From a virus: 22,135 nucleotides of DNA. Under the pieces are notes generated by a model. That model was not told the DNA's origin, searched no databases, and saw nothing but the letters and a program-made list of their open reading frames with translations. The position numbers and the translations under genes are program-made. Location of the stretch: the IMG/VR virus record IMGVR_UViG_3300025326_000774, positions 1-22,135 of that record; one strand, written 5' to 3'. This document shows, one piece after another, positions 3,126-20,444 of the stretch. Position 1 is the stretch's first letter; every line of letters starts with the position of its first letter.

Positions 3126-3428
3126 TTACTTAGGATCATATTCGATATGAAAATGCTCGTTAGCAGTTCCTTCGTCTTCTATAAATCCTTCATATCCAAT
3201 TCCTAGTCTAGTCATTACTTTAGCTAAAAAGGAATATTTTATTTCAGGTTTCATATCTTTAGAACGAATATCTAATGCATTACCATCATAATGTTTAGAG
3301 CCTTTCATATGTTTACCATTATTGCCTACAGTAATAGTAGTAGTAATATTCATAATTTCAGCTACATTAGCGCATGCAGCCGCTATTACTAAATTTTTAG
3401 GACGGACTGTTGCTAGAACTTTTATCAT
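3126..3428 (-). CDS. M15-type zinc peptidase, probable endolysin
   Basis: A 100-residue protein with the M15/VanY-like metal site. KHYDGNALDIRS holds ligands H46 and D53, and the C-terminal EHFHIEYD holds the general-base candidate E91 and third ligand H94; the E-to-H spacing of three matches the family. M15 enzymes cleave peptide bonds in peptidoglycan stem peptides (D-Ala-D-Ala or L-Ala-D-Glu). At about 100 residues it is a bare catalytic domain with no wall-binding module and no signal peptide, so export needs a holin or another route. The ATG at 3428 is preceded by AGAGG at good spacing and lies inside the end of the upstream coiled-coil gene. It most likely acts in lysis; a virion-borne wall-opening role is the alternative. 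Confidence 0.85.
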   Translation of the reverse strand: MIKVLATVRPKNLVIAAACANVAEIMNITTTITVGNNGKHMKGSKHYDGNALDIRSKDMKPEIKYSFLAKVMTRLGIGYEGFIEDEGTANEHFHIEYDPK

Positions 3429-11903: not shown

Positions 11904-13157
11904 TTAATAACCAGATGGAACAGCCAATAGGTCTATATACGACGTGGCAGCAGGATTGTTCACAAAGAACTGCGTGCCAACAACCATATAAAAGATTTCT
12001 GATGTTGCTATACCACCAGATGGCCCTCTAATCTCGAATATTTTCCTTCCATCTGTAGTATAGAAACCAATTGGCAGAATTTCGCCGCGCCCCCATACTT
12101 CAGGAGAAACGAAATCTATTCGACTAGTATCCCAATTAAAGGAAATTTTTACTGGAGCACCAGCCATCTGCATGTTGTTACCATTAAAATACAGATTCAA
12201 GCCTTCTTCTTTAGCTTGCTTCTGAATAATAGTAACAGCCTGACCAATTTGCTCGTATGCATCTTGTTGCGCAGGATGCATCCAGGCATCTGGACGGAAA
12301 TTGTTATCGATGCCTACACGATTTCCAATCGCATTAATAGCCAACCTAGGAAGAGGCATAGTCAATGCTGAACTTCCACCGTTGACTCTATTTGACCGGA
12401 TTTCGGGAGTTGTTGCTCTGTTAAACCCTAACCATGTTCCAGTTGATGCATTGGAATGTTGATAGGGAATACCATACAACGCGGGTAGAGAATTAGGTGA
12501 TGCGATACCTCTAGTAACTAGTCTATCAGTAGCAACTGCACCTGCTATTGCGGGAGTGACTGAAATGGACTTACCAACAACATCATAGCTGGTAATCGTA
12601 GTGATACCGCGATTAGTTGTTAATGTAGCATCAAACACTTGCACTCTTTGCTTTGGACGCATTAAACGGACGCCAAATCCATCTGTAGTGCAAGTATAAG
12701 TATCTACACCTGCAGCAGTAGCAACCGTAGTAATGACTCCAATTACACCATTACCAGGCTGCATCATCTGAGAATCTAACTGACGGCGCAATTCATCGAT
12801 AGCACCAGCTGTTAGACGTCTAACGTTATTTTCAATGGCTTTACGAGCATCATTAGTGGACCACTGTGTTAATTTAGTGTATTCAATATTCTCAGAAATG
12901 AATACTGAATTTAACACTGCCTTATCATACGTAGGACCACTGCCGCGCCCTAAATCGCCACCATCGGGATCAAAATATCCAAAGTCTCCACCAGTTTGTA
13001 AATCAAGTGGAATACGCATCTGCCGATTAGAAATCTTTTCGACATCGCGTTTCTGGATATGTGCAAAGAACTTGTCGTCCATGTCGTAAACACGACGAAC
13101 TTTAGGAAGAACCCTTTCTAGTTCTAATGCAGCTACTTGGGATTCTGTCTGTGCCAT
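11904..13157 (-). CDS. Major capsid protein (HK97-fold, inferred)
   Basis: A 417-residue protein with the length, position (scaffold before, decoration after) and sequence character of a podovirus major capsid protein. The N-terminal arm is helical (ESQVAALELERVLPKVRRVY), then comes a P-loop/E-loop-like region with GGDFGYFDPDGGDLGRGSGP, a long helix (NDARKAIENNVRRLTAGAIDELRRQ) and several beta segments, and a late segment with GQAVTIIQKQAKEEG followed by the C-terminal strands GTQFFVNNPAATSYIDLL. The Shine-Dalgarno GAGGGT precedes the ATG closely. No protease site or N-terminal delta domain can be called from sequence. HK97 fold is inferred from family knowledge. Confidence 0.85.
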   Translation of the reverse strand: MAQTESQVAALELERVLPKVRRVYDMDDKFFAHIQKRDVEKISNRQMRIPLDLQTGGDFGYFDPDGGDLGRGSGPTYDKAVLNSVFISENIEYTKLTQWSTNDARKAIENNVRRLTAGAIDELRRQLDSQMMQPGNGVIGVITTVATAAGVDTYTCTTDGFGVRLMRPKQRVQVFDATLTTNRGITTITSYDVVGKSISVTPAIAGAVATDRLVTRGIASPNSLPALYGIPYQHSNASTGTWLGFNRATTPEIRSNRVNGGSSALTMPLPRLAINAIGNRVGIDNNFRPDAWMHPAQQDAYEQIGQAVTIIQKQAKEEGLNLYFNGNNMQMAGAPVKISFNWDTSRIDFVSPEVWGRGEILPIGFYTTDGRKIFEIRGPSGGIATSEIFYMVVGTQFFVNNPAATSYIDLLAVPSGY

Positions 13158-13190: not shown

Positions 13191-14474
13191 TTATCTGTTA
13201 AAGAAATCATATGTAGATTCTCCAGCTTTTTTGCTTTCCTTCTTATCCTCTTTATCTCTATTTCCGCCAGAGGAATGACGGTTAACTGGCAAATGTCCCT
13301 TACGATCGACTTCTTCGTCGTCGTCAGAGGATTTCTTTCTGCCCTTACCACCTAAAGCTTCATTTCTAGCCTGTTTAATGGCAGCTTTTAAAACAGACTT
13401 GGCTTTTCCTAAATATGTTCTTCTAATATTATCCGCGGCGGAACGGTTATAATTATTTTGAATTACCGCCTTCCATAATCTATCCATCTGTGCCATGAAA
13501 CTCTTATCAGCTAACATTGCTCTTTCTGCCAATTGAAAGGCTTCATTTGCAGCGTGTTTCTTTTCAAACTTGGACATTGAGTTTTTAGGGTCAATATTTG
13601 TAATAATGGTAGACATTACAATATTATCTACTTTACCTTGTAATTCCCCTTGAAATGTTGTAAACTTCTCCATCTGAAATTCGCGACGTTCCTCAGAAAT
13701 TTTATCAACTTCTTTAGGATCTTCCTTAGATAACCTACTAGGTGGAGTCCACTCAACACCAGGAAAAAGAAACTGGTATATAAGAGTAGCAGCTTTTTCT
13801 ACATCCTCATTTTTATTGTCCTTAGCATGCTTAAACATAGCCGCGATTGCGTTCTTATATACATTAGCGACAATATGCTGAGCCGCACCCTGGTCAACTC
13901 TATATAATGCTGGGAGATAATCATCTACTAGTTTAGCAAAGACTTTATCGTTACTTTTAACTGCCTTTAAAACATCTTCAGTAGTCCCACCCATTACTGA
14001 ATGTTCAAATTTAGAGAATGCAGAAACCGCATCCTGAGCTTCTTTAGCATCATCAACAGTAGGAAATACTTCTACATACTGTTGATAACCATAATAAGAT
14101 TGCTCAAGATATGGAAACTTTTTAAATAGAGTAGGAAATTCCTTTAAAATATCCTTCTTTTTATGTGGAGCAACCAGGTCAAGTTCTTTTTCAAGATCCT
14201 TATCCTCGTCCTCTTCTTCGTCTTCCTTATCCTCTTTATCCTTTTCTTCGTCTTCATCATTGTCTAATTTTAAATCTTTATCTTCGTCCTTATCTCCACG
14301 TTTATCTTCTTCCTCATCCTTATCTTTGTCTTCATCTTTACTTTTCTTATCATCATCCTCATCATCATCTTCACTAAGTAAATTAATTATACCTTCTTCC
14401 GATAATCCTTTATTTTCTATAGGACCGTCAATTTCAGAGTCAAAACGTCCCCATAATTTTATTTCATGCTGCAT
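13191..14474 (-). CDS. Scaffolding protein (highly acidic)
   Basis: I place the start at the ATG at 14474 (427 residues, MQHEIKLWGRF), with GATAAGG upstream and an 11-base overlap with the portal stop. The longer frame would need a TTG and overlap the portal by 71 bases. Residues about 34-100 are an almost uninterrupted run of Asp, Glu and Lys. The rest is helical and charged, with a central helical domain (QMEKFTTFQGELQGKVDNI) and a basic C-terminal region (KQARNEALGGKGRKK) ending YDFFNR. Position between portal and capsid, helical content and charge fit a scaffold that binds capsid through its C-terminus and leaves the head at maturation. A fused protease is not visible. Confidence 0.8.
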   Translation of the reverse strand: MQHEIKLWGRFDSEIDGPIENKGLSEEGIINLLSEDDDEDDDKKSKDEDKDKDEEEDKRGDKDEDKDLKLDNDEDEEKDKEDKEDEEEDEDKDLEKELDLVAPHKKKDILKEFPTLFKKFPYLEQSYYGYQQYVEVFPTVDDAKEAQDAVSAFSKFEHSVMGGTTEDVLKAVKSNDKVFAKLVDDYLPALYRVDQGAAQHIVANVYKNAIAAMFKHAKDNKNEDVEKAATLIYQFLFPGVEWTPPSRLSKEDPKEVDKISEERREFQMEKFTTFQGELQGKVDNIVMSTIITNIDPKNSMSKFEKKHAANEAFQLAERAMLADKSFMAQMDRLWKAVIQNNYNRSAADNIRRTYLGKAKSVLKAAIKQARNEALGGKGRKKSSDDDEEVDRKGHLPVNRHSSGGNRDKEDKKESKKAGESTYDFFNR

Positions 14475-16776
14475 TTTTCTCAACCTTATCTTTTGGCGTT
14501 TTTGGCTTCTTTTCAGCTGGAACTTCACCATCAATTCCAGCAGCCATTTGTTGCTGTTGCATTTGTAATTTCATAATTTCCATTTTATGTTCTCTAAAAT
14601 GCAGTAAACAATTCATATAACCGGGATTATTTTGCTCTTTTGCTAATCTACCAGCATCACTTACTAAAAAGGATCTCAATATTTCTGCTTCTATAAAATG
14701 ATTATCAAGTTCCGCATCTACTCTAATAGAAGGCACTTCCATTTCCTGGCCCGTCATTGGGTCTATATCCATTAATGGTTGAGAAGATAATAGTTCCTTA
14801 ATTTCATCGTGTTGTTTAGTTCTATCATCTTCTCCAGGCATTTTAAATGAAGGAATGCCAATTGCTTCAGTAATCAAGGATAAATTTTCTGGAGAAGTAA
14901 TAGCCTGCAATATCTCAGGATTACCTAGTTCAATCAATCGCATAATTGTATCTTTAATCTGTGCCCAACTAGTTGGCAATTGTTCACTAGTTTCTAATTC
15001 AATATCTCCAATTTTACCTTCTGTTTCAGCTTTTCGTATGAAAACATTTATGTAGTTACCCTGTTTATCTTTCTCAACAAGGCGCTCATCTCCTGCCATT
15101 TCCTTAATATAAGATGTGATAACCTTGGAGAATATATCTTTCCACCAAATGGATAACATTTTCCATGGAGTTTGTAGTCTCTGAAGAGCCTGAGCGCGAC
15201 TCATTGAATATTCGGAAGCTGTTTTGCTTCCTCCTAATTCCCCTCCAAAGATACTAGGTTGAGCACCAACTACTAATTGTCCTAGCTGCTGAACAACATT
15301 CATAAAGGGTAATACTTCGTCGGATAATGCAGCAGCTTTAAAAGTAAAGAAAGCATCGGCAATTCTTTTTGAATTTCCTACCGCCTTTGTTGGATATAAT
15401 CCTCCAGGAGTTGCTTCTGTGGTGCCATATAATTCTGTATCTACAACTGCGGGGTCAACAAATGTCTGCGGTATTCCTTGTTCAATTGTCTGGACAATGA
15501 GAGAAATAAGATCATTAATAATATCTTGAATTGACACCAAAAATAAACCAAGAGGATCATGATGAAGATAATCACTGAGAGGATTATGTGTAAGAGTCCA
15601 ACAATCATCTAATGCCTCATTACATGCATCAGCAAATAAATCATTAATCATTACTACTTTAGAGCCATTTGGATACATTTCCTTTAATTTATCTGTTTCT
15701 TCCTCCTGCCCACAAACATTAAATGCCGCTGGTCTTAACCAAGTATTTCTAACAGTAACATTATTAATTGGAATTTCCCCTTTATATTGTGGATTTAGAC
15801 GACCCCAACGTTCATAAGGATCCCCTATTCCAGTGCTGGCATAATAAGCGCCTCCCTTATCAATCTTTCCTCTGAGTTCCGGATACATTTCTAATGCATT
15901 AGCATAATGAGTCTCATAAGCAAACTGTAAATATGGCATATCAGTTTGCTTCATAGCATAATTGGGGACTTTTACATACAATCCTCCATAAACTTCTAAA
16001 CATTGTCTACTCTTAATTTTATGAGTAACACCAGTTAATTTAGTAACAATCATAGGAACTTTTTGAAGTTCCGGATCAACCTGGCTAGCACAATTAGGAC
16101 AAATAACTATATGCTCATTAACTATTAAATTTTGCAACTCAACATCAGTATCATCAACCCCAAATTCATCTTCTACATTTTGACTAAATAATTCATCAGG
16201 TAATTGCATCTGACAAAATGGACAAACGTATGTTTCACTTTCCTCTTCAGAATACTTCTTGTCTTCATAACTACCATATGAAGGATCTTCTTTCGGATAA
16301 CCATAACAACAAATTAAACCTTCAGTACAAAAAATATATAATGCATGCAACCATAGAAATTGAACATTATTATGTTTCTCAATTAATCTAGCGATTTTAT
16401 CTCCTGCTTTGGCTGTAATAATGTCCAAAGCATCATCAGCATCATCAGGGACACAACGGACAGAAGGAATAGTGATGCTAAGAGCAGCGATAATGGACTC
16501 AAGATAAGCTTTAAATATATTAACAGGCTTATCATAAAAAGCATTATCATTAATGTTTTCATCCAGCGCAACATTATCCCAAACTCTCCAATCGTGTGCT
16601 ACTTCTGAATACCAAATACGGGAGAATCCAGACCAATAGAGTTTTAATTTCCTCCATTGCCTAATTTGAGTCTCCCTAACAGATTTATCTTCTTCTGTAA
16701 AATGATCTACTACGTGCTTAAGAAGAAGTTTAATATCCTCAGGGACTTCCCGTCTCTTATTATTTTCGAGCGCCAT
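14464..16776 (-). CDS. Portal protein with putative zinc-ribbon insertion
   Basis: A 770-residue protein, in the size range of P22-like portals. The N-terminal region (WRKLKLYWSGF, then YDKPVNIFKAYLESIIAALSITIPSVRC) is characteristic of podovirus portals. Residues about 165-235 carry C185-x2-C188 and C226-x2-C229, likely a zinc ribbon inserted in the wing region. A long helical stem/crown region (AQALQRLQTPWKMLSIWWKDIF and after) and a Gln/Met-rich C-terminus (MKLQMQQQQMAAG) with a basic tail complete it. The start overlaps the upstream stop as TAATG. The portal forms the dodecameric channel for DNA packaging and ejection. Confidence 0.85.
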   Translation of the reverse strand: MALENNKRREVPEDIKLLLKHVVDHFTEEDKSVRETQIRQWRKLKLYWSGFSRIWYSEVAHDWRVWDNVALDENINDNAFYDKPVNIFKAYLESIIAALSITIPSVRCVPDDADDALDIITAKAGDKIARLIEKHNNVQFLWLHALYIFCTEGLICCYGYPKEDPSYGSYEDKKYSEEESETYVCPFCQMQLPDELFSQNVEDEFGVDDTDVELQNLIVNEHIVICPNCASQVDPELQKVPMIVTKLTGVTHKIKSRQCLEVYGGLYVKVPNYAMKQTDMPYLQFAYETHYANALEMYPELRGKIDKGGAYYASTGIGDPYERWGRLNPQYKGEIPINNVTVRNTWLRPAAFNVCGQEEETDKLKEMYPNGSKVVMINDLFADACNEALDDCWTLTHNPLSDYLHHDPLGLFLVSIQDIINDLISLIVQTIEQGIPQTFVDPAVVDTELYGTTEATPGGLYPTKAVGNSKRIADAFFTFKAAALSDEVLPFMNVVQQLGQLVVGAQPSIFGGELGGSKTASEYSMSRAQALQRLQTPWKMLSIWWKDIFSKVITSYIKEMAGDERLVEKDKQGNYINVFIRKAETEGKIGDIELETSEQLPTSWAQIKDTIMRLIELGNPEILQAITSPENLSLITEAIGIPSFKMPGEDDRTKQHDEIKELLSSQPLMDIDPMTGQEMEVPSIRVDAELDNHFIEAEILRSFLVSDAGRLAKEQNNPGYMNCLLHFREHKMEIMKLQMQQQQMAAGIDGEVPAEKKPKTPKDKVEKNAA

Positions 16777-17276
16777 TAATACGATCGTCCACCAAAATAA
16801 TTAGATAACATTCCGCCGCCCATTCCCCCACCAAATCCGCCACCCATAGTTTGAAATCTACCTTGACGATACATATCCCCCATTGGACTTTGCATTCCAC
16901 TTAAATCCCCAGATCGCTGCATATAATCTGGAAGTTGCATTTGCTGTTGCTGCTGTGGCTGTTGCATCATAAATTGAGAAGGATTAAAGGAAGGCATCAT
17001 CGGTCTCTGTGCCATTCCCATATTTCCTCCAATCATACCTCCCCCCATACCCATAGAAAAAGGACTATTATTTCCAGGTGTAGATTGAGCAGGAGCTCCA
17101 GAAGGTCTACCTAACATAGATGAGAAATTATTAGGAGAACCAAAATTCCCTTGATAATTTCCCCCGTAATTAGGCTTATAGGAATCTCCTGAGGCAAAGT
17201 TACCAGAATCATAAACATTCTTAGACCTCTTACCTCCACCCCCACCAAAGGCACGCATAAGATTTGATGATGCCAT
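16776..17276 (-). CDS. Gly/Met/Gln/Asn-rich low-complexity protein upstream of portal
   Basis: A 166-residue, apparently disordered protein: N-terminal basic segment (MRAFGGGGGKRSKNVY), Gly/Asn/Tyr-rich middle (NYGGNYQGNFGSPNNF), a Met/Gln/Pro block (MMQQPQQQQQMQ) and a C-terminal run of GGG-M repeats ending FGGRSY. It is stop/start fused at both ends (TAATG). I recognise no family. In head clusters such a protein could be a minor internal or portal-associated component, or a packaging accessory. The reading frame is real: it is open for 166 codons, with typical AT-rich third positions and flush junctions. Confidence 0.75.
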   Translation of the reverse strand: MASSNLMRAFGGGGGKRSKNVYDSGNFASGDSYKPNYGGNYQGNFGSPNNFSSMLGRPSGAPAQSTPGNNSPFSMGMGGGMIGGNMGMAQRPMMPSFNPSQFMMQQPQQQQQMQLPDYMQRSGDLSGMQSPMGDMYRQGRFQTMGGGFGGGMGGGMLSNYFGGRSY

Positions 17277-17446: not shown

Positions 17447-18190
17447 TTACCTATCAAAAATAGAAAGCAAATATTCTTTAACTTTTTTATTACGAGGCAA
17501 ATCTGCCATAGCTTCAGTAACACCTTTAGCACTAATTGGAGATAATGCTCTTCCGCCAGGTAATGCATATCTATTAGCCGCATGGCGCGCGGACATCTCA
17601 AATGGATTTAAATCATAACCTAATATACCCTCTGCTTTTCTATATGCAGGTTCCATTCTTTCTCCCATGCCTAATCTCTGTGCAACATGAGTTGCTTCAT
17701 GAGCCATAGTAGAATCTAAATTATCCGCCGCCTTACTAAGAGCAACTGGAACCGTTCTTTCATTACCATATTTAAAACCATGTCCTATAAATGCCCTTCC
17801 TTGAACTTCTGCATTACCTTCCATTTGACCCGGGGGAACTAATCCAGCTTTAATATGAGCTGCTACTCGTGGATAGCGCGCAGCAAATCTGGCTCCCACT
17901 TCCCCCATACCCAAATCAGACATTTTATTTTTAAAAGTCTCAGTTCCAATCATTCTACCTAATCTATCAGGAATACCCGCGCTTTTTAAATATTTGGTAA
18001 CTCCCATTGCAGGACTCATACCTGCCATATCTTCTAATTCGAAAGGTCTTAAACCAGCCTTTTTAATCTCTTCATTAAATCTACGTTGTTTAATGGACGA
18101 AGCTAGCCTATCCTGTTCCGTTCCAAATATATTTTCATATAAAGTAGAACTAGGCTGTAAAGCTCTTTTAGAGGCTAATAATTTAGGCAC
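17447..18190 (-). CDS. Zinc-metallopeptidase-like protein (HEATH gluzincin)
   Basis: A 247-residue protein starting at GTG (18190) with GAGGAAG eight bases upstream. Residues 161-172 (TMAHEATHVAQR) match HExxH with H164, E165 and H168. About 30 residues later NPFEMSARHAAN offers E198 as third zinc ligand, the layout of gluzincins such as DUF4157-like proteins (HExxHxxQ with a later NPxExxA). The N-terminal 150 residues are helical and unassigned. No signal peptide or membrane segment, so it acts inside the cell or in the particle. It overlaps the upstream gene by 8 bases. Candidate roles are head maturation (no S14, S49, U35 or S78-type protease is visible in this window) or cleavage of host protein. 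Function is inference. Confidence 0.75.
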   Translation of the reverse strand: MPKLLASKRALQPSSTLYENIFGTEQDRLASSIKQRRFNEEIKKAGLRPFELEDMAGMSPAMGVTKYLKSAGIPDRLGRMIGTETFKNKMSDLGMGEVGARFAARYPRVAAHIKAGLVPPGQMEGNAEVQGRAFIGHGFKYGNERTVPVALSKAADNLDSTMAHEATHVAQRLGMGERMEPAYRKAEGILGYDLNPFEMSARHAANRYALPGGRALSPISAKGVTEAMADLPRNKKVKEYLLSIFDR

Positions 18191-18815: not shown

Positions 18816-20444
18816 TCAATGCCTCCTACTAAACCTAGACTTTCTAGTAACCATTCCACTTTGTCTCTTTGATTCAATTCTTTCCATTTGTCTATAAAAG
18901 CCTGTTTGGTCATTAGTGAGATTTAATCGCTCTACCGCAGCCTGAACCAATCTTTGCGTTTCCATTTCATCTGTAGCACCATCTAAATATCTCTGAGCTG
19001 CTTTACAAAGATATCTAAAATTATCCAATGGATCATCACCATTAAATTCTTTGATGTCTTCTTTCTTTTTTTCATCATATACGGCTATTGGAATTGTATC
19101 AATAATGATTTCACAATGACTAAAAAATTGAATCTTAGGAAGATTAGTTTCTTCCGGCTCATCCATAAATTGACTTCTATAACGAGCTAAAGCATCTTGA
19201 CCATGATTACGAAAAATATAATTGGCTTTATCAAGATCGTAGAATTCTCCATCAGCTATTAATTTTTCCGTTTGCTGCCATCTCAAGAAATCGTGACATA
19301 ACTGAAGACCAGCAATTCTAGAACCTGGACTATTATCACTACTAGACGGAACTAATCCAGAGTATCTCTGAAATTGATCTGCAATTGTTTCAACTCCCCT
19401 ATCTTGCATTGCTGAACCACAGATTGTTGTATTAACAATATTTTCACCATGACTAACTTCTTTTACTTCCGAAGCCCAAAATGGAAGATCTTTACCTAAC
19501 CAACTTCTTTCCCTATAGACATATAATCTTTTAGTGGGTGCAATTGCTCCCCACATAGCATGACACATTGCCCTTTTGCCCCAGTCAATAGATAATATTC
19601 TAGGCCACCATTCTGGAATGGTAAAAGGTTCAATGACATGAAGTGCATTCTCAGGCTCTCCGGGAAAACGTATTGGTCTATATTCGGGAAACACACTTCC
19701 TTCAAAGGCATGCCAATCTCCATACTTTTTAGCATTCTTTTCTGCCTCTGGTAATATCTCTAACTTCTGTAAGTATTGTGGGTCATATGCCATACCATAA
19801 GGATTATCCTGAGGTAGACATGGAATATAAGTTCGATAGAGACCCGTTTTAGTGTCACGAAGAATCTTATATCCTTTTTCGTCTGGTTTTACGAATCTAT
19901 TGTAAACAAATGTCTGGCCAATTCCGCCAGGATTAGTCCCACTCCTAGCAATAGCAATATTAAACGATGATCCTGGCCGGACACGGCTGCCGACCATATA
20001 GATATACATTTGTTCTTCAAAGTGCGTAAGCTCGTCGAACGCACAATAGTTATACTGAGCTGTGTCGTATTGCCTTTTGACGTCAGCCATATGCTGGATA
20101 TGTCCGAAATCGAAATACGACCCATACTCAGGCCAAGTCCAACTATGTTTGGTTTCATTGTATATTGCGCCTGTTAATGGATAATATTCCTTTGAGAGTC
20201 GTATAACTTCTCGTTCAAGGTCATTGTAATTTCTTCTAAGTAATATTCCCTTAAATCCTCTAAACTTGTAAAACCCGCGTATAAGAGGAAGAACTGTAAG
20301 TATGAAAGATTTTCCTCCGTAGGCGGCTCCACCATATAAGGCTTCAAATACTTCATCAGGAATACTTAAAAAATCTTCTTGCCTTAGATGGGGGGTTATC
20401 TCTCGTATAAAACCATTACCGGGGTCAGAAAGTGATACTTGCAC
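18816..20444 (-). CDS. terL: Terminase large subunit
   Basis: A 542-residue DNA-packaging motor. ATPase domain: Walker A GGAAYGGKS at residues 38-46; Walker B with CAFDELT (D137, catalytic E138); coupling motif SGTNPGG at 168-174. Nuclease domain (RNase H fold): D287 in LSIDWGK, a middle acidic QDRGVETIADQF segment, and D471/D474 in DDPLDNFRY. It cuts and pumps concatemeric DNA into the prohead through the portal. The start is GTG at 20444, fused with the upstream stop as TAGTG, and has no evident Shine-Dalgarno, so translation is probably coupled. The length is typical. No small terminase gene is recognisable nearby. Confidence 0.95.
   Translation of the reverse strand: MQVSLSDPGNGFIREITPHLRQEDFLSIPDEVFEALYGGAAYGGKSFILTVLPLIRGFYKFRGFKGILLRRNYNDLEREVIRLSKEYYPLTGAIYNETKHSWTWPEYGSYFDFGHIQHMADVKRQYDTAQYNYCAFDELTHFEEQMYIYMVGSRVRPGSSFNIAIARSGTNPGGIGQTFVYNRFVKPDEKGYKILRDTKTGLYRTYIPCLPQDNPYGMAYDPQYLQKLEILPEAEKNAKKYGDWHAFEGSVFPEYRPIRFPGEPENALHVIEPFTIPEWWPRILSIDWGKRAMCHAMWGAIAPTKRLYVYRERSWLGKDLPFWASEVKEVSHGENIVNTTICGSAMQDRGVETIADQFQRYSGLVPSSSDNSPGSRIAGLQLCHDFLRWQQTEKLIADGEFYDLDKANYIFRNHGQDALARYRSQFMDEPEETNLPKIQFFSHCEIIIDTIPIAVYDEKKKEDIKEFNGDDPLDNFRYLCKAAQRYLDGATDEMETQRLVQAAVERLNLTNDQTGFYRQMERIESKRQSGMVTRKSRFSRRH

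Follow-up and report, generated by a model that had tools for sequence, protein, structure and literature searches.

A predicted small gluzincin from a variable locus next to the portal gene of uncultured podophage-like phages

Zincin-like metallopeptidase (MPTase) domains are the commonest domain of the packaged or injected “polyvalent” proteins of phages (PMC5512222), and DUF4157 (eCIS_core; PF13699), which bears an HExxH motif, marks the cargo of phage-tail-derived injection systems (PMC11297309). HExxH and a glutamate are also combined in the minigluzincins and the SprT, Spartan, and Wss1 proteases, such as proabylysin (4jiu) and gp46 of phage XM1. The Spartan-like metalloprotease gp46 has been put forward as a possible prohead protease (PMC10457771), and thus a metalloprotease in that role is not new as an idea. 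Two families of phage proteins whose function is not known, PHROG 10499 and PHROG 16532, are strongly matched by some of the proteins described below.

The protein studied here shares features with several of these systems. It is encoded in a 22,135-base virus fragment (the window). A sequence-only reading of this DNA had placed HEATH and the glutamate E198 of NPFE in a gene between terminase and portal. These positions were confirmed, with the correction that the gene lies on the minus strand; the plus-strand frame at 17447-18190 is filled with stops. The gene, its motifs, and its neighbors are as follows:

17447..18190, minus strand: predicted small gluzincin (zincin) gene, based on the open reading frame (ORF), motif positions, start context, relatives, and model
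17855..17878, minus strand: codons of RYPRVAAH (residues 105 to 112), a motif conserved in the alignment of the window family (A2)
17687..17701, minus strand: codons of HEATH (residues 164 to 168), with predicted zinc ligands H164 and H168 and predicted general base E165; found in the relatives except L066
17597..17608, minus strand: codons of NPFE (residues 195 to 198), with predicted third zinc ligand E198; found in all relatives spanning it
18816..20444, minus strand: TerL, the terminase large subunit (PHROG 979, E = 3e-30; phage matches)
18183..18557, minus strand: g124, a conserved small gene upstream of the zincin gene and the left border of the variable slot
16776..17276, minus strand: Gly/Met-rich 166-aa protein between zincin and portal, with a homologue only in L133
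14464..16776, minus strand: portal protein, the right border of the variable slot, assigned from its location and size, with family searches giving no significant match
13191..14534, minus strand: putative scaffold, 447 aa and acidic, found in relatives with or without the zincin
11904..13157, minus strand: major capsid protein (MCP; PHROG 14242, E = 1.5e-8), conserved in relatives from its start codon onward

The order is thus TerL, two small genes, the zincin gene, the Gly/Met-rich gene, and the portal gene. The zincin ORF encodes 247 aa, in which Pfam found no second domain. Its GTG start codon at 18190 is preceded by a Shine-Dalgarno-like AGAGGA, and the start of the gene overlaps the end of g124 by 8 nt, which together suggest coupled translation within a late operon. 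A second HExxH among the ORFs of the window occurs in a 65-aa plus-strand frame. The 166-aa protein is Gly/Met/Gln-rich and of low complexity, and contig L083 is without both it and the zincin.

Uncultured viral contigs, the longest being 41 to 50 kb, contain relatives of the portal, MCP, and scaffold proteins, and no relative of the portal or MCP was found among cultured phage records. The window terminase shares ~30% identity with the terminases of several phage types, including N4-like and HTVC-like phages, and the Pfam scan gave a weak SU10-adaptor-like match; from these matches, the window phage is likely a podophage. A small protein elsewhere in the window (3126-3428, minus strand) contains SKHYDGNALDIR...HFHIEY, the layout of a D-Ala-D-Ala (M15-like) endolysin, and its Pfam match is a Hedgehog signaling domain.

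Scans with neighboring genes and a search of viral contigs with the family alignment yielded five homologues of the zincin, all from uncultured phages and in the same slot (L132, L082/L133, L135, L066, and L134). The L132 protein is 45% identical to that of the window over the alignment, and the L134 homologue runs past the contig end. All five follow a g124-like gene and precede the portal gene wherever the contig extends that far. No relative was recovered by a single-sequence scan of the viral contigs or by a scan of genome contigs with the family alignment, and cultured phages gave none at a meaningful level, the only hit being a weak one to jumbo phage phiEaH2 (E = 0.03).

The glutamate at the position of E198 is kept in every relative that spans NPxE, and a second conserved motif of the window family, FAxRYPRxAAH, lies ~55 residues ahead of HEATH. 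Loss of HExxH in close relatives, which the earlier reading had named as a point that would count against it, is confined to a single relative among the four in which the motif is covered: L132, L082/L133, and L135 keep HE[AG]TH together with NPxE, with the third-position variants NP[FLW]E, whereas L066 reads EEGAH and has lost the first zinc ligand while keeping NPFE. The L066 homologue (337-1083) is possibly an inactive zincin, and because of this loss, proteolytic activity may not always be needed.

Other relatives encode a second set of small zincins (A3/A4) with the pattern HExxHxxQ ... Y..RPxExEA ... DIxLP, whose genes are mostly found in the same slot and overlap the end of g124. HExxH is present in all 38 distinct A3-type proteins, and the distal PxE is invariant in the 36 of them that were aligned. 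A3-type zincins are also found at two further sites in relatives, upstream of TerL and downstream of MCP; examples are L022:2927-3463, L060:2470-3030, and L090:8185-8670. About half of the 40 aligned proteins of this set match PHROG 10499/16532, with E-values reaching 3.5e-24 and 6e-18, respectively. The set also weakly reaches the gluzincin-type Pfam families DUF3810, eCIS_core, DUF6782, and SprT-like, and its A4 profile gives weak matches to M48 and proabylysin chains.

When the window family was compared with this set (A2 against A4), the profile match was 96.3% (E = 1.7e-9); reversed or column-shuffled profiles gave ≤0.4%. The match falls to 5.5% after masking of the HExxH region, and thus the homology signal comes from around the active site. 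In the joint alignment, E165, H168, Q171, P196, E198, and A201 are invariant and H164 is nearly so, with E198 of NPxE aligned to the glutamate of RPxE in A4.

Searched by itself, the window zincin reached no family in Pfam, NCBIfam, PHROG, PADLOC, or PDB. Neither PHROG 10499 nor PHROG 16532 was reached, and L082 and L066 match these profiles weakly (E = 0.0045 and 0.023). Sequence and fold searches of the PDB gave no meaningful match. An AlphaFold model built on a six-row alignment (pLDDT, 41) was replaced by one built on 40 rows, in which residues 70 to 247 have a pLDDT of 68.5. Two helices, a long one with HExxH and another with NPFE, reach a pLDDT of about 85. E198 sits on the next predicted helix after the HExxH helix. 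Foldseek ranks a DUF4157 protein of a phage first among the viral matches of this model (E = 0.37; probability, 1.00; rmsd, 0.5 Å over 47 columns) and a SprT-like protein second; the E-values are not significant. The beta-sheet is poorly resolved, with low confidence at model residues 47 to 86 (protein residues about 116 to 155). Structure prediction, which had been proposed as a check, thus supports a DUF4157/SprT-like pairing of the HExxH and glutamate helices at the local level, short of a full zincin fold. The proposed gluzincin layout is therefore backed by its conservation among relatives, by the profile match to another family of small HExxH proteins, and by the predicted geometry of the helix pair, and we consider it probable, with good confidence, that the protein is a gluzincin-like accessory protein.

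With eCIS_core/DUF4157, the window zincin shares the signature AHE.TH.aQ, but it scores below the Pfam cutoff for that family (13.1 bits against 22). As in polyvalent MPTase domains, the HExxH helix is followed by a glutamate in the next helix and the gene lies among late and structural genes, although those are domains of multidomain proteins (PMC5512222) and the window zincin is a single protein. Compared with PHROG 10499/16532, it has an extra N-terminal region, which carries FAxRYPRxAAH, and NPxE instead of RPxE. It is small and has HExxH plus a glutamate, like the minigluzincins and the SprT, Spartan, and Wss1 proteases, but no significant match to these was obtained, and the SprT domain of these phages sits in another protein, where, in the single case scanned, it is joined to an SNF2 helicase.

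That conserved protein of ~700 aa is encoded outside the head cluster, in L159 (5080-7140, plus strand) and, as equivalents, in the majority of the 23 long relatives that were scanned. In the copy searched with Pfam, the SprT-like domain (HEVAHALCPGHGHD) is N-terminal and fused to the SNF2 helicase (E = 1.3e-9 and 2.9e-22); the protein is possibly a phage Spartan-like DNA-protein crosslink enzyme. Giant proteins of 1500 to 2000 aa with an HExxH of their own (mostly HE.AHIG-like) are encoded in L157 (11447-16810, minus strand), G004, G006, G014, G016, G017, and G021, and one of them also has a HATPase_c domain. They are likely to be polyvalent proteins or proteins that are ejected; the window fragment apparently stops short of the gene for such a protein.

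Across relatives, ORFs with HExxH are more frequent in the TerL-portal interval than expected (18 observed against 3.0; maximum of 200 shuffles, 12). One is present in only 14 of the 81 distinct intervals of a first sample, and a zincin in only 24 of the 94 distinct slots of a larger one, a fraction that is inflated because that sample includes loci fetched by zincin search. On the portal tree, the pattern of zincin presence requires at least 9 changes. Among 32 long records, 9 have such a zincin, and scanning of the remaining 23 yielded no HExxH ORF of this layout. The zincin is thus not present wherever scaffold and capsid are. The nearest portal sister without it is L083, which branches beside the window and L082 in the portal tree and whose portal is 64% identical to that of the window. 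Its portal gene directly follows g124, leaving the slot empty, and its 31-kb record has no other small zincin of this layout; its only HExxH ORFs are a 101-aa frame and the SprT-type protein of ~700 aa. The start of the MCP has identical conserved residues in relatives with and without a zincin, and scaffold lengths are alike in both. Because the MCP is conserved from its start codon regardless of the zincin, it is unlikely to have a propeptide that is cleaved off.

A short GPSW/GPSF motif near the N terminus is shared by slot and pre-portal proteins that are unrelated in other respects (in L003, L075, L002, L041, L088, and L094). It is ~2.6-fold enriched in the TerL-portal interval and may be a shared tag. 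As a packaging signal it was dropped; it is not universal and is missing from the window zincin.

Variable loci of this type are a frequent home of phage virion cargo and anti-host enzymes. The reading that we favor, with about as much doubt as conviction, is that of an accessory small gluzincin, expressed late from a variable locus between g124 and the portal gene in an uncultured podophage-like group, that would serve as virion cargo or be directed at the host. It is preferred because the portal-side locus is variable, zincins occur at several positions, and HExxH domains are known from packaged or injected phage proteins and from injection-system cargo. H164, H168, and E198 would hold Zn2+, and E165 would activate water. 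The protein would be made together with the head genes, i.e., late, and would either enter the virion as cargo or work late inside the infected cell. Its target would be a host, competitor, or co-packaged protein rather than the scaffold or capsid of the phage itself. The alternatives already raised from the sequence, a target in the host or delivery with the virion, fit better than head maturation.

It is possible, although we hold it only tentatively, that the peptidase, instead of being packaged, acts late against the host or its defenses within the cell that produces the phage. Such a role would suit a small single-domain protein whose accessory, patchy distribution is typical of host-interaction genes and whose HExxH is kept in every distinct A3-type protein. 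However, the position of the gene in a late structural cluster suggests that it would be expressed too late for early counterdefense, and no PADLOC-type or other family was matched. Improbable in our judgment is a noncatalytic or chaperone-like zincin fold that would help in virion structure or loading, with proteolysis dispensable. L066, with EEGAH, is consistent with this, as is one DUF4157 injection-system effector whose toxicity is reportedly independent of its metalloprotease motif and for which a chaperone role has been proposed (PMC11297309), but the window zincin, those of L132, L082, and L135, and all A3-type proteins read retain HExxH and the distal glutamate.

Less credence still is given to a prohead maturation protease with the scaffold, capsid, or portal as its substrate while the head is assembled, which the sequence-only reading had entertained as a new type of head-maturation enzyme. 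The gene does lie within the packaging and head cluster near the portal gene, overlapping g124; the proposal for XM1 gp46 offers a precedent; and, as had been remarked, no serine or other prohead protease is visible by a Pfam scan of the 17 larger proteins of the window, itself a 22-kb fragment from a phage with long relatives of 41 to 50 kb. The window zincin had no Pfam match to the prohead-protease families S14, S49, S77, S78, and U35. However, most relatives with the same portal, scaffold, and capsid lack the zincin, the slot of L083 is empty, and neither the MCP start nor scaffold length changes with the zincin. In P22 and phi29, which have a separate scaffold, this is released without cleavage (PMC3185693), so there is nothing unusual in a scaffold that has no protease; the argument that the zincin fills a vacant protease position was dismissed on these grounds. 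The zincin is unlikely to be the head-maturation protease of these phages because it is optional and comes and goes across the phage family. A slimmer chance is that it matures the head or portal in its carriers only, as a lineage-specific protease gained by phages whose relatives release scaffold uncleaved; if so, a gluzincin would have been recruited to prohead processing. Least probable is a chance motif with no active site: HExxH alone arises in 0.57% of shuffles of the protein by composition, which is not extreme, but HExxH with a later [NR]PxE arises in 0.0085%, and the pair is conserved across divergent relatives, matches another HExxH family by profile, and falls on a modeled helix pair.

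These results remove a false lead on a new class of prohead protease. They also identify a variable locus beside the portal gene that is repeatedly filled by small zincins in a widely sampled uncultured phage group. With the zincin present in some members, absent in others, and degenerate in one EExxH copy, the group offers natural comparisons for the function of a solo phage minigluzincin.
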